NCBI GenBank assembly: GCA_012519415.1
Contig: JAAYQG010000072.1
Coordinates: 1-47,113 of the forward strand
Direction of reading: 5' to 3'
Source: Treponema sp.
GTDB taxonomy: Bacteria; Spirochaetota; Spirochaetia; Treponematales; Treponemataceae
Length of the DNA stretch: 47,113 bases
How positions within the stretch are numbered: position 1 is the first letter of the stretch; every line of letters begins with the position of its first letter. The notes beneath the pieces were generated by a model, which saw nothing but the letters and a program-made list of their open reading frames with translations, ran no database searches and had not been told where the DNA came from. Made by a program: the position numbers and the translations under genes. Below, piece after piece: positions 1,735-36,627 of the stretch.

Positions 1735-1806
1735 ATAGAATTAAGCTTTGTTCAAGCTTTCAGTTTTTGTAGATTAATCTGAAATTGTAGTCAATCTAAA
1801 GCGAAA
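1735..1806 (-). repeat. Divergent copy of the two-hairpin intergenic repeat
   Basis: Read on the minus strand, this stretch contains GATTGACTACAATTT followed by GATTAATCTA. These match the core of the repeats at 31767-31940 and 35176-35300 in order and spacing. GCTTT and AAAGC flank the core, and a short AAGCTT/AAGCTT hairpin follows. The copy is degenerate and membership is less certain than for the plus-strand copies. Confidence 0.4.
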
Positions 1807-1812
1807 TTGGAA

Positions 1813-4503: not shown

Positions 4504-5781
4504 ATGAAATTGCATATGAAATTACGTTCGCCGTTTTTTAAAAATATAATTCAATTTTTTACTCTTGTATGTTCGCTTTTTGTAAGGAATGATCTATTAA
4601 TATATGCCGCAGCAGGAGCTTATGGCTTTTTATGTTCACTTGTGCCGATTATCATGTTAATTGCAGGAATTCTTATACGTTTTTTTAAGACTACACCTGA
4701 TGTGATTATCAATATGCTCAGTCAGACAACACTTATGCAGACTTTTGATTTGAATAACATTTTTAATTCCATTTTTTTTGTGCGTAGATTTGGGATTTTT
4801 GAAATAATTATTACTATATTTATTTTATGGATGGCGCGGCGTTTTTTTAGCTATTTAACTCGCGGGTTTAGGCAAATTTTTAGAGACGGTGTTGTTAAAA
4901 GCCCTATGTTTATAAGTGTTATTGCATTTTCTGCTGAAGTTTTACTTGTACTTGGTGTTGCATTGCTTATTTTTGTATTAAATGTTTTTCAATCTTTTAT
5001 AAATTTTACTGGACTTATTTCTTATATCCCTTGGTTTTTGAAAAAATCCGGAGAACTTTTTTTGCGCTTTTTGACATTTGGGATAATGTCTATTGTTATT
5101 ATGCTTTTTTATTATTTTATTACTGGAAGTAAACCTAAACTTTTAGATTGTGCAATTGCTTCAGTATGTTGTACTTTTACTTTTTGGGTTTTTAATATAA
5201 TTTTTCATTTATTCTTAAATATGGGACGATATAATATTGTTTATGGAGTTTTAAGCAATCTTATTGTGCTTCTACTTGAAGTATATGTTTTTTTTATGTT
5301 GCTTTTGTTTTTTGCGGAATGTATTTTTGTAAAGCAATTCTATAATATTCTTGTTTTTGAACAGATTTATCTTTTGCCGCCAAAAAATACAAAACAACTT
5401 TCTGCTGCTTTTATAAGAAGTGTTTTTCAATCGCCTGAATTTTTTATTGCTTCTGAATTGTTGGAACTTAAAAAAAATGAGCCTATATTCAGTAAAAATT
5501 CTAAAAGTGAATGTATTTATTATATTGCGTCAGGTACTGTTTCCTATTTTGAAAATAATCATATTGAATATTTTTCTGCCGGTTCTTTTTTTGGTGAAAT
5601 TGATTGCCTTACAAAAAGAAAAAGACATAGCACTGCTATTGCAGAAACAGACGCAAGACTTTTCTGCGTTTCTTATGATGATTTTAAAGAGCTTTTGAAT
5701 TTTAGCCCTGAAGCAGGTAAAAAAATGGTTAAAACTATGAATTCGTTTTATCTTAGGACTTCAGTTTCGCGATTAGGTTGA
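4504..5781 (+). CDS. YihY/BrkB-family membrane protein fused to a cyclic-nucleotide-binding domain
   Basis: Inner-membrane protein of 425 residues. Residues 1 to about 290 carry roughly six hydrophobic segments in the YihY/BrkB pattern (YAAAGAYGFLCSLVPI near 34-49). The family was once misnamed RNase BN and its transport role is unsettled. Residues 325-410 form a cyclic-nucleotide-binding-like domain: SGTVSYFE, SAGSFFGEID, and the phosphate-binding-cassette arginine at about 374 in KRKRHSTA. The usual Ser after that Arg is His, but the Gly-Glu and Arg are kept. This C-terminal sensor is not part of ordinary YihY proteins. A plausible inference is that cAMP gates or localises the membrane part. 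The window also encodes an adenylate cyclase. The message is predicted to be leaderless. Confidence 0.82.
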   Translation: MKLHMKLRSPFFKNIIQFFTLVCSLFVRNDLLIYAAAGAYGFLCSLVPIIMLIAGILIRFFKTTPDVIINMLSQTTLMQTFDLNNIFNSIFFVRRFGIFEIIITIFILWMARRFFSYLTRGFRQIFRDGVVKSPMFISVIAFSAEVLLVLGVALLIFVLNVFQSFINFTGLISYIPWFLKKSGELFLRFLTFGIMSIVIMLFYYFITGSKPKLLDCAIASVCCTFTFWVFNIIFHLFLNMGRYNIVYGVLSNLIVLLLEVYVFFMLLLFFAECIFVKQFYNILVFEQIYLLPPKNTKQLSAAFIRSVFQSPEFFIASELLELKKNEPIFSKNSKSECIYYIASGTVSYFENNHIEYFSAGSFFGEIDCLTKRKRHSTAIAETDARLFCVSYDDFKELLNFSPEAGKKMVKTMNSFYLRTSVSRLG

Positions 5782-5898
5782 AACTTCAGTTTTGGGATTT
5801 TGCGTTGCCAAAATTTGAGGATTGAGCAATCTCTAAACTACGTGATAGTCTTAGATTTTGTACAAGATTTTATGTATTGTTAAGCTCCAAAAATACTA

Positions 5899-11719: not shown

Positions 11720-11800
11720 GGGTTTCGTAAGATTAAACCTAAAGCTGTAGAAGCAACTCCACGATATAATAACGCTTTGTAGTTTTTTCGTACGAAACCC
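11720..11800 (-). repeat. Long inverted repeat, divergent member of the intergenic repeat family
   Basis: GGGTTTCGTA (11720-11729) and TACGAAACCC (11791-11800) are perfect 10-base inverted arms around 61 bases. Read on the minus strand, the interior holds TTCTACAGCTTTAGGTTTAA directly before the closing arm. This matches TTCTACAGTTTTGGGATTAA at 35277-35296 and its equivalents near 31900. It sits between converging transcripts. The interior is longer than in other copies. Confidence 0.5.
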
Positions 11801-31610: not shown

Positions 31611-31683
31611 TCGGAATGACAGGATTTGAACCTGCGACATTCTGGTCCCAAACCAGACGCGCTACCAGCTGCGCTACATTCCG
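31611..31683 (-). tRNA. tRNA-Pro(TGG)
   Basis: 73 bases on the minus strand. Acceptor CGGAATG (31683 side) pairs with CATTCCG (31618-31612), with discriminator A. The anticodon stem TCTGG/CCAGA encloses TTTGGGA, giving anticodon TGG. The T-arm GCAGG-TTCAAAT-CCTGT is standard. CCA is not encoded. Confidence 0.95.
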
Positions 31684-31766: not shown

Positions 31767-31844
31767 GGCGTTTTGCTTTGGGATTGGAGCTACAAATTTG
31801 GGTTTATGTTAGCAAAACGCCAAGTTTGTGCTCGCACAAACTTG
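31767..31844 (+). repeat. Two-hairpin intergenic repeat, copy A
   Basis: GGCGTTTTGCT (31767-31777) and AGCAAAACGCC (31811-31821) pair perfectly around a core with GGAGCTACAAATTTGGG. A second hairpin follows at once: AAGTTTGTG (31822-31830), loop CTCG, CACAAACTT (31835-31843). Copy B begins 19 bases further. The unit lies in the 460-base gene-free stretch between tRNA-Pro and the DUF4867-like gene. Confidence 0.7.
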
Positions 31845-31862
31845 TGGATTGGGCGTTCGGTT

Positions 31863-31940
31863 GGGTTTTGCGTTTGGGCTGGAGCTACGAATTTGGGATT
31901 AATCTAGCAAAACCCGTAGTTTGCGGCGAGCGCAAACTAC
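31863..31940 (+). repeat. Two-hairpin intergenic repeat, copy B
   Basis: GGGTTTTGC (31863-31871) and GCAAAACCC (31907-31915) pair around GGAGCTACGAATTTGGG and ATTAATCTA. The second hairpin is GTAGTTTGCG (31916-31925), loop GCGAG, CGCAAACTAC (31931-31940). Compared with copy A, both arms of both hairpins have changed together. A weaker, partial third unit follows to about 32000 (GGGATTAATTTAAATTTGGG). Confidence 0.7.
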
Positions 31941-32090
31941 AAGGCTTGTGTGTTGGGTGGGATTAATTTAAATTTGGGGGGAATAATCTAGTGAAGCTTG
32001 ATAATTTGGTGTAATGGCTTTTTATGTACTATATATTTATTCTATTCATATCGTTCAGAATGAATCTTTCGGCGAAACTCCCTATGTTGT

Positions 32091-32118: not shown

Positions 32119-32148
32119 AATCTATTAATTTTGGAGGGCTATATAGAA

Positions 32149-32790
32149 ATGAAAATCAAACCGGTGTTCAATCATTCATTTGAAAAATATGGAAAAATTC
32201 TTAAAGGCTATGATATAGAATCTTTGCTCGAAAAACTTGAAGCTTCTACTGCAAAACCGGCTAATGTTATTTATACGCCAAGCGATGCGGCTCTTGAATC
32301 AATTTCTGCAGAAGCGTTTTCTAAAAATGCTTTTGGCGGAATGCCAGTTCAGGTTGGTTATTGTAATGGACAGAATACAAAGCTTAATTGTCTTGAATAT
32401 CATCGCGGTTCGGAAATAAATATTCCTGCAAATGATATTGTTCTTTTGCTCGCTCCGCTTCAAGCTGTAAAAAACGGAAAGCTCGATACGAATCTTGTTG
32501 AAGCATTTTATGTTCCAAAGGGAACTGTTGTTTTAATTTATGAAACAACTTTGCATTATGCGCCATGTAATGCCGTAAAGAAAGGCAAAGTTTCTAAAGA
32601 CGGATTCCGTGTTATTGTTGTGCTTCCAAAAGATACAAATACGGAAAAGCCTGAAATCAAAGAAATCGATTTTGAAGACAAACTGCTTTGGGCACGCAAC
32701 AAGTGGCTAATTGCTCACCTTGAATCAAATGAAGCAAAACAAGGTGCTTTTGTCGGTTTGATAGGCAAAAATATTGATCTTGCAAAATAA
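32149..32790 (+). CDS. DUF4867-like protein
   Basis: 213 residues, cytoplasmic, no signal peptide. It resembles the DUF4867 family, small proteins of gut anaerobes that often occur near carbohydrate genes. The middle has a cupin-like feel: CLEYHRGSEINIPANDIVLLLAPL, then EAFYVPKGTVVLIYETTLHYAPC, with His and Glu that could bind a metal. The enzymatic role is unknown to me. The start is ATG 32149, preceded by GGAGGG; it stands alone between tRNA-Pro and the converging gap gene and ends in a shared terminator. It may act in sugar metabolism, as an inference from family habits only. Confidence 0.65.
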   Translation: MKIKPVFNHSFEKYGKILKGYDIESLLEKLEASTAKPANVIYTPSDAALESISAEAFSKNAFGGMPVQVGYCNGQNTKLNCLEYHRGSEINIPANDIVLLLAPLQAVKNGKLDTNLVEAFYVPKGTVVLIYETTLHYAPCNAVKKGKVSKDGFRVIVVLPKDTNTEKPEIKEIDFEDKLLWARNKWLIAHLESNEAKQGAFVGLIGKNIDLAK

Positions 32791-32805
32791 AATCTAAAAC
32801 ATAAT

Positions 32806-32843
32806 AAAAAAGCCCGATTTTGATTAAAAAATCGGGCTTTTTT
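32806..32843. terminator. Bidirectional terminator between the DUF4867-like gene and gap
   Basis: AAAAAAGCCCGATTTT (32806-32821) pairs with AAAATCGGGCTTTTTT (32828-32843). It is A/T-flanked on both sides, so it can end transcription from either direction. Confidence 0.88.
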
Positions 32844-32867
32844 ATTATGCACTTTTAAGCTTGATTC

Positions 32868-34679: not shown

Positions 34680-35168
34680 ATGAACAAACAAACAGATGAA
34701 AATAAATTAAATGTGCCTAAAAAAGATTATTGCACTCCTATGCATACTGCTGAACATATTCTAAATCAGGCAATGTGTCGCAATTTTGGCTCCGACCGTG
34801 CTTTTAATGCACATATAGAAGCAAAAAAATCAAAATGTGATTATCATTTTAATGATTCTTCTAAAATACCAACAACAGAAGCTCTTATAGTTTTAGAAGC
34901 AGAAGTAAACGATATTATTTCAAGAAATCTTGAAGTTACAAGTCGCATTGTTACGCGTGAAGAAGCTGCAAAAGTTGCAGATTTATCAAGACTTCCAAAA
35001 GATGCAAGCGAGATGGTTCGGCTTGTTTTTGTAGGTGATTATGACGTATGTCCTTGCATAGGCACTCATGTTTCAAATACAAAAGAAATAGGAAAATTTC
35101 GCATTATAAGCACAGATTTCAATGATGGCGTTTTTCGCATACGCTGGAAAGTTGAGGGGAAAATTTGA
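34680..35168 (+). CDS. AlaX-like tRNA editing-domain protein
   Basis: 162 residues corresponding to the second additional domain of alanyl- and threonyl-tRNA synthetases. In other bacteria stand-alone forms (AlaX) hydrolyse mischarged Ser- or Gly-tRNA-Ala. The zinc site is visible as HTAEH (His22, His26) and CIGTH (Cys126, His130). The N-terminal beta-barrel half of larger AlaX proteins is missing, so it is the short type. The actual tRNA substrate cannot be told from sequence. The message should be nearly leaderless, and no Shine-Dalgarno is present. A repeat element begins directly after the stop. Confidence 0.82.
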   Translation: MNKQTDENKLNVPKKDYCTPMHTAEHILNQAMCRNFGSDRAFNAHIEAKKSKCDYHFNDSSKIPTTEALIVLEAEVNDIISRNLEVTSRIVTREEAAKVADLSRLPKDASEMVRLVFVGDYDVCPCIGTHVSNTKEIGKFRIISTDFNDGVFRIRWKVEGKI

Positions 35169-35175
35169 AATTGGG

Positions 35176-35300
35176 GGGTCGCTTTTGGGGTAATTCCATA
35201 ATTTTGGGATTAATTTGGCGAACCTTCGTAGTTTGCGGTTTCGCAAACTACAAGGATTTTTTTGATGTTGGATTGGTTCTACAGTTTTGGGATTAATCCA
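35176..35300 (+). repeat. Two-hairpin intergenic repeat, copies C and D
   Basis: Copy C: GGGTCGC (35176-35182) pairs with GCGAACC (35218-35224) with one mismatch, around a core containing TTTTGGGATTAATTTGG. The second hairpin is GTAGTTTGCG (35228-35237), loop GTTT, CGCAAACTAC (35242-35251), with the same arms as copy B and a different loop. A partial copy D (TTCTACAGTTTTGGGATTAA at 35277-35296) follows and forms TGGATT/AATCCA. Copy D runs into the 3' end of the converging receiver/ATPase gene. Confidence 0.68.
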
Positions 35301-36627
35301 GTATGGGCAGTTCTGATGGAATTGCAACTTGTTTTTTAAGTTCTTCTAGTTGTGCTGTCATACTAATTATTTTCTTGTTAGAATTCAAAAGCCGTTGTGC
35401 CAGCAGTTTTGATAAAAAAATACCGTAGTGGGGGTTTCGTCTAATTAAATTCAGAAACGAAACTTTTGGTACTTTTATTAGTTTTCCGCCGCCTATTGAC
35501 ATAACTGTTGCAGAACGTCTGTCATTTAGAAGAAAAGCCATTTCGCCAATAAACATATCGTTTGGAGAGAGAACGGAAACAAGTTTATTGTCTGTATAAA
35601 TTGCATATCTTCCGCTTACAATAAAATACAAATCATTGCTCATTTCATTTTCTCTACATACAATTTGGCGGTCTAAAAAATTTATATTTGCAAAAGATTG
35701 CATAATGCTCGGAATTGTATTTGCAGCATCTTTTAAGTTGTTTATTTCAAATGTTACTTCGTTGCCTTTTTCATTATAAGATAGCGAAGATACAAGACTT
35801 TCCGAAAGCTTCATGCCTCTGCCATGTGTTCCTTCTGAAAAGTCTGCATTGAGGTACTTTCTCCAATCAAAACCAGCTCCGTCATCACGAATAACAAATT
35901 TAGATTTAGTATGTCCAATTGCATATGCGATGCGGATTTTTCTGGAGGCTATTTCCGGCTGTTTGCATTTTTCTTTAATAAGCGAAAGAATGTTGCCGCC
36001 GTTTTCTAGCCATGCTGATTTTTCTTCATATGTTATGTTACAGTTTCCATGCTCAAGCGCATTTGTCAAAAGCTCCATAAGAACAGTTTGCAAAGAATAA
36101 AGGTCATCGTTGCTTATGCGGTTGGAACTATACATATAACCAACAAGAAAACGCGTATACAGCCTAAAATCCATAGGATCGCAACCGCATACAAATGAAC
36201 CTGTTTCTTTTCCACCAAAATTGTCCTGCATTCCTCTGTTAAATAAAAAATGCTGGTTTCGCCACAAAATGCGTAATAAGCGTGTAAAGTTTTCTTTGAA
36301 ATTTATTAAAGTTTGAACTATAAGAATGTTCGGGTCTTTTTGTTCATCAACAGCTTGTGCTTCCGCAGCATTTGAAACAACAGCAATAATGCCACCGTTA
36401 TGTAGCCATGGATCAGAATTAATAGTTGCAATGATGCGATGACAATCAATTTCGCTAGATGTAAAGTCTATAACTTTTATTTCAGGAAGCTCATAATCTA
36501 TGAAACTTAAAGCTGCGTCTGTGTCGGTGTAGAAATCAGCATCAAAATAATTAGCGTATTTTTTACAACTTAGTTGCACAGTGTCAATAACCTGCTGGTT
36601 TGTAGAAGCAACAAGAATCTTTTTCAT
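35293..36627 (-). CDS. Receiver-like / GHKL ATPase / cyclic-nucleotide-binding protein
   Basis: 444 residues in three domains. Residues 1-120 form a receiver-like fold (ILVASTNQQVIDTVQLSC) with Asp54 in KVIDF at the phosphorylation position, but only part of the acidic pocket is clear. Residues about 150-300 are a histidine-kinase-like ATPase of the anti-sigma/RsbW kind: N-box ELLTNALEHG, then RDDGAGFD and GTHGRGMKLSESLVSSL. No His phosphoacceptor domain is seen. Residues 315-420 are a cyclic-nucleotide domain with a canonical pocket (FIGEMAFLLNDRRSATV; Glu362, Arg371). It probably integrates a phosphorelay and cAMP to set the ATPase, perhaps as a Ser kinase or anti-sigma factor. ATG 36627 is chosen because the promoter lies right before it. 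Its last codons are supplied by a repeat copy. Confidence 0.82.
   Translation of the reverse strand: MKKILVASTNQQVIDTVQLSCKKYANYFDADFYTDTDAALSFIDYELPEIKVIDFTSSEIDCHRIIATINSDPWLHNGGIIAVVSNAAEAQAVDEQKDPNILIVQTLINFKENFTRLLRILWRNQHFLFNRGMQDNFGGKETGSFVCGCDPMDFRLYTRFLVGYMYSSNRISNDDLYSLQTVLMELLTNALEHGNCNITYEEKSAWLENGGNILSLIKEKCKQPEIASRKIRIAYAIGHTKSKFVIRDDGAGFDWRKYLNADFSEGTHGRGMKLSESLVSSLSYNEKGNEVTFEINNLKDAANTIPSIMQSFANINFLDRQIVCRENEMSNDLYFIVSGRYAIYTDNKLVSVLSPNDMFIGEMAFLLNDRRSATVMSIGGGKLIKVPKVSFLNLIRRNPHYGIFLSKLLAQRLLNSNKKIISMTAQLEELKKQVAIPSELPILD

Follow-up and report, generated by a model that had tools for sequence, protein, structure and literature searches.

A genus-specific family of intergenic two-hairpin repeats, similar in kind to REP, BIME and BOX elements, in rumen spirochaetes

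The genome of a rumen spirochaete (Treponema sp., GCA_012519415.1) carries about 240 copies of a previously unnamed, genus-specific family of intergenic palindromic repeats. The copies share one two-hairpin structure, their stem arms covary, they lie between genes, they occupy different sites in different species and they form local tandem runs. We regard this as a new family that is REP/BIME/BOX-like in kind. With a probability of roughly 0.72, its members are DNA repeats that would fold when single-stranded and would be spread by an enzyme acting in trans. Open-literature searches returned no description of the family and none in Treponema. With these copies, and diverged versions in sister species, it is a well-sampled family in a group for which no published description was found. 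Because the arms covary without a clear G-U excess, it offers a good test case for how palindromes are kept up and spread without a recognisable REP transposase.

The analysis started from a stretch of 47,113 nucleotides (contig JAAYQG010000072.1; the window), in which the first-pass annotation had noticed two neighbouring copies, A and B, of a two-hairpin repeat. Both copies were located and fold as a first hairpin (H1) followed by a second (H2), with the coordinates and scores given in Table 1. The arms differ between the two and yet pair in each, as had been claimed (GGCGTTTTGC/GCAAAACGCC and CAAGTTTGTG/CACAAACTTG in A, GGGTTTTGC/GCAAAACCC and GTAGTTTGCG/CGCAAACTAC in B). The DNA folds are stable, with minimum free energy z-scores of −4.3 for A and −4.0 for B and none of 200 shuffles equally stable, and the RNA folds are likewise stable (z about −4 to −5 against shuffled sequence). 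The further copies named in that annotation fared unevenly. The one at 35176-35300 on the plus strand proved to be two units, C and D. The one at 1735-1806 on the minus strand was matched weakly and folds unremarkably (z = −1.5), which makes it borderline and at best a decayed copy. The one at 11720-11800 on the minus strand is a stable imperfect palindrome (GGGTTTCGTA...TACGAAACCC, z = −3.6) that falls outside the family by both covariance models described below (15 bits and E=0.79 with R2; absent among the R1 matches at E<=1e-3). The window also holds a perfect 22-bp inverted repeat at 32800-32849 (CATAATAAAAAAGCCCGATTTT / AAAATCGGGCTTTTTTATTATG), a bidirectional-terminator-like hairpin just past ORF 32131-32790.

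Table 1. Repeat units and neighbouring features in the window.
Feature	Position	Strand	Details
Unit A	31767..31846	+	H1 arms 31767-31776 and 31812-31821, with a core loop of ~35 nt between them; H2 31821-31844; R1 85.8 bits, R2 72.7 bits
Unit B	31862..31942	+	H1 arms 31863-31871 and 31907-31915; H2 31916-31940; R1 103.5 bits, R2 79.7 bits
Linker between A and B	31847..31861	+	GATTGGGCGTTCGGTTG; type recurs in other arrays of the same genome
Probable trailing unit, degenerate	31943..31998	+	GGGATTAATTTAAATTTGGGG..AATAATCTAG; recognised by eye; similar ones end other arrays
Unit C	35173..35253	+	Starts 4 nt past the end of ORF 34680-35168(+); R1 66.9 bits, R2 59.5 bits
Unit D, degenerate	35256..35327	+	Head to tail with unit C; R1 29.9 bits, E=0.00043
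Possible decayed copy	5761..5836	+	Overlaps the end of ORF 4504-5781(+); R2 21.8 bits, E=0.04; repeat family D1
Possible decayed copy, borderline	1740..1810	-	First placed at 1735-1806; R2 23.2 bits, E=0.022
tRNA-Pro(TGG) gene (context)	31611..31683	-	Promoter-like -35 box TTGACT (31764-31759) directly adjoins unit A at its start

A unit is about 81 bp long and consists of an H1 stem of 9-10 bp around a conserved core of ~35 nt, with an H2 stem of ~10 bp and a loop of 4-5 nt directly behind it, so that the H1 arms span only part of the unit. By eye, the loop core resembles two tandem ~20-mers (TTTGGGATT-GGAGCTA-CAAA and TTTGGGATT-AATCTA-GCAAAA). Units are joined head to tail through short linkers, such as GGATTGGGCGTTCGG, into mosaic arrays of 1-8 units, in which GAGCTAC-type and TTTAATCTAAAA-type units alternate and other hairpin modules are interleaved. 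Neighbouring units are nearly identical in some arrays, which points to local tandem amplification. A second recurrent module within arrays is made up of three hairpins (GCACTTTAATCAGACGTCCTTGTCTGATTAAAGTGC, CGAGTTTTGCTTCACAAAACTCG and CACTGCGTCCTTGCAGTG); it was seen on contig C122 of the same genome (4205-4300; about 1205-1300 of locus L034) and again on C14, C153, C125, C67, C80 and C187.

Sixty copies were aligned (alignment A1) and used to build covariance model R1, while a separate model, R2, was built from the copies of relatives. Further copies and covariation beyond chance level, the two things on which the first-pass annotation had staked its family, were both found. A BLAST search with a 91-nt query gave 89 matches in the 2.45-Mb genome, and R1 gave at least 150. 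In 262 kb of loci around matches, R1 returned 239 matches at E<=1e-3, a number that includes an inverted duplication on contig C84 and a few contig-end repeats, possible duplicates from assembly, and that is nevertheless a lower bound on the copy number as only stretches around matches were counted. An HMM that also scores partial units marked 295 stretches in ~95 clusters, many of them at contig ends. The duplication on C84 (4100-12300) is large, carries identical arrays and flanks on both arms and is either real or an assembly artefact.

Seven of the eight genomes of the genus contain the family by R1, with no R1 match in the remaining one (G003). Copies are numerous in the window's genome and in G001, G004, G006 and G007, and few in G005 and G002. 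None of 237 genomes from other genera of the same family gave an R1 match under stricter filters. A wider search with R2 produced five single matches, all weak, from two other genera; these were not accepted as members, as the two whose alignments were examined share mainly an H2-like hairpin. An exact-pattern scan of named genomes found a Spirochaetaceae MAG, RGIG8276, from water-buffalo rumen, along with two unrelated single matches, and viral contigs, phages and plasmids gave no match. Comparison with Rfam identified only two tRNAs and no family for the element. In one relative (G005), most of the recovered copies have a different core sequence, with the H1 and H2 layout unchanged. Other palindromes, for example of the TCATTCCGAACTCGTTTCGGAATC and TCTGATTCTGATAACGAATCAGA types, lie beside these different-core elements (loci L093, L104 and L199).

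The covariation record is unusually clean. Among the copies of the genome that carries the window, 93.9% of stem cells were paired, and 125 cells had changed on both sides compared to 57 in shuffles, with 0 of 500 shuffles reaching the observed score. In the relatives (alignment A3), 95.7% were paired, changes on both sides occurred in 17 of the 19 stem pairs, and 304 double-changed cells were counted where 73 were expected, again with 0 of 500 shuffles reaching the score; slid controls paired in 25-48% of cells. Alignments A2 and A3 were fitted to the model structure, and double-changed cells overstate independent events because certain arm classes are shared by many copies through common descent. 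The margin is large despite this fitting and kinship inflation, and the alignment of the relatives is the stronger test.

Paired arms of this kind could serve as RNA, either as 3' UTR hairpins acting in mRNA stability or termination or, as the first-pass annotation had offered among its options, as a family of small RNAs. The covarying stems themselves, the stable RNA folds, the many units whose start coincides with the stop codon of the gene before them and two terminator-like minus-strand sites, where H2 is followed by TTTTGC, agree with such a role, although the T-tract at those sites is only four long. If one transcribed strand were under selection, G-U should clearly outnumber A-C among the imperfect pairs. 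This excess was not seen: stem mismatches were 39 G-T to 25 A-C in the copies of the window's own genome and 17 to 16 in the relatives, or 56 to 41 overall. Arrays also showed no consistent orientation to genes across this genome and the relatives. Specifically, gene 3' ends met the 5' edge of an array (sense) 24 times and the 3' edge (antisense) 35 times in the former, and 32 and 24 times, respectively, in the latter, and arrays between tandem genes were sense in 11 cases and antisense in 21 (p=0.11). In 56 arrays, a divergent gene starts beside the 5' edge, which rules out the plus strand as that gene's 3' UTR. Taken with the lack of an Rfam family, these counts make a structured RNA unlikely, and the small-RNA suggestion is not upheld. 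The similar G-T and A-C counts and the mixed orientation indicate that the arms are more likely maintained as DNA than as a strand-specific RNA; function of both strands as transcripts would likewise yield a near-equal ratio.

The placement of the arrays is closely tied to gene boundaries. None of the ~95 clusters in the genome lies within a retained ORF, though 79% of the fetched sequence is coding; the ORF caller was a rough one, and short ORFs made of the element itself were dropped. In the relatives, 6 of 63 clusters fell within putative ORFs called in the same rough manner. Arrays begin at or inside the end of the upstream gene (median 4.5 nt) or at a median of 55 nt from the start of a divergent gene, and near divergent genes they often start immediately beyond a promoter-like -35 box; outside the window, such boxes were recognised by eye. 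The 5' edge of arrays in the window's genome is nearer to gene ends than the 3' edge, an asymmetry that may be partly a detection artefact since degenerate trailing units are missed.

Sites differ between species. The tRNA-Pro promoter at the window site is also found in G004, G006 and G007 as far as AGTCAATAGG; beyond it the sequences diverge and no array follows. An array is missing at this site from all seven relatives, and the downstream synteny differs between species. After the C33 gene, the element is present in the window's genome and in G001, G006 and G007, where the C-terminal residues and the stop codon are encoded by the element itself (YYGQ|SVSH*, YYGQ|GRFALGSI*). It is absent from the more distant G005 and G002, which end in YYGQN* or YYGQGK*, and the locus is rearranged in G004. 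At two further shared loci, the arrays differ between species and are sometimes inverted. Dispersal is indicated by pairs of units whose cores are 95-99% identical and whose 5' flanks are unrelated. At the sites compared, neither a fully matched empty site with both flanks conserved nor a target-site duplication was found.

Copy number, covariation and intergenic location thus bear out the first-pass suggestion of a dispersed element with maintained structure, REP-like or MITE-like. The likeness to REP and BIME sequences (PMC3733652, PMC2817692) lies in the high copy number, the intergenic location, the short stems with alternative complementary residues, the clustered mosaic arrays and the termini that provide stop codons. 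REPs are described as intergenic, with alternative complementary stem residues and with TAG stop codons supplied to genes (PMC3733652), and these shared traits, the many intergenic palindromes and the presence of Y1_Tnp genes in two relatives (G001 and G005) speak for a classical GTAG-type REP/REPIN population driven by a RAYT tyrosine transposase. In contrast to REP and BIME, however, the element has units of 81 bp with two hairpins and a conserved loop of 35 nt, arranged in predominantly head-to-tail arrays in the window's own genome, and it has neither a RAYT nor a GTAG or CGTC end tag. In alignment A1, GTAG occurs only as the start of an H2 arm in one subclass, where it is paired with CTAC, and other subclasses have CAAG, so a GTAG tag beside the stem is not a feature of the family. 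No Y1_Tnp gene was detected in the 98% complete genome with the highest copy number, nor in G004, G006 or G007 despite their tens of copies. The Y1_Tnp genes of G001 and G005 are bordered by other hairpins, with no R2 match in loci L189 or L190. The transposase search proposed in the first-pass annotation therefore gave nothing in the genome itself, and within the genus the presence of the gene does not track copy number, which makes a RAYT-driven population highly improbable. In G001, locus L190 (528-1030) contains a small Y1_Tnp gene flanked on either side by sequence of the CCCCGACGCTCTGCGTCG type; it is IS200-like and unrelated to the element.

Frequent G-T pairs in REPs have been read as a sign of RNA function (PMC3733652), whereas the G-T frequency is not clearly raised in the rumen spirochaete element. 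Palindromic repeats with a CGTC tag are reported in Spirochaetes with no dedicated transposase known (PMC3733652). The present family is likewise palindromic, high in copy number and without a known dedicated transposase, but it differs from them in sequence and architecture. Their CGTC lies at one end of a stem of 8-9 bp, and A1 showed no CGTC at the ends of the units. CGTC-like REPs of the CATTGCGAGG...GCAATC type were seen in G001, G006 and G007 (L190 about 1890-1935, L091 and L098), in G007 in the same intergenic region as the element family. BOX elements have a modular boxA-boxB-boxC structure. As far as the description of those of Streptococcus pneumoniae goes (PMC3049150), they are similarly modular, stem-loop forming, built of repeated modules and dispersed between genes, but differ in module order and boundaries.

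Two other mobile elements deserve comparison. A MITE, that is, a non-autonomous insertion-sequence derivative with terminal inverted repeats, would likewise be short, palindromic, dispersed and variable in site between species, but we consider it very unlikely here: the inverted arms of H1 bracket just a portion of the unit, MITEs do not usually form mosaic arrays joined head to tail, and no target duplication was recognised by eye in the flanks inspected. An identity as integron attC sites, or as what is left of cassette arrays, was considered because treponemes carry chromosomal integrons. The attC sites described in Treponema (PMC3607928) resemble the element in folding as single-stranded DNA and occurring in series, and integron integrase (IntI) matches above the cut-off exist in G004 and G007. 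On the other hand, the units lack established R/L boxes and are scattered across ~95 sites with no cassette genes. In the genome richest in copies, all recombinase matches are weak (71 bits, the cut-off being 265 bits); in G003, which has zero copies, the IntI match is split; and no element match lies in the IntI loci L210-L212. With no integron integrase in the genome itself and no element beside the existing IntI genes, this explanation was rejected as extremely improbable. The integrases in question score over 417 bits and lie at G004:C28:36594-37529 and G007:C95:9613-10548.

We therefore return to intergenic DNA repeats moved in trans as the preferred reading. The family would spread and persist as DNA, with hairpins forming when the sequence is single-stranded, for example in replication. 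New sites may arise when a folded unit is copied by an enzyme acting in trans that was not found in this analysis; the Y1_Tnp and integron integrase searches yielded no candidate. One tentative and rather unlikely version is a REP-like population whose dedicated enzyme has no relation to RAYT tyrosine transposases, acts on folded single-stranded DNA, spreads the repeats and maintains their palindromes. Arrays could grow and shrink through slippage or recombination between units. Perfect arms may be kept either because the hairpin is required by that machinery or through template switching from one arm to the other, which would correct mismatches. Insertions in genes and promoters would be cleared by purifying selection, leaving arrays that start at a stop codon or immediately beyond the -35 box of a divergent promoter, and any effects on neighbouring transcripts would be secondary. 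As many contigs end in an array, some of the fragmentation of these rumen assemblies is probably due to the family as well.
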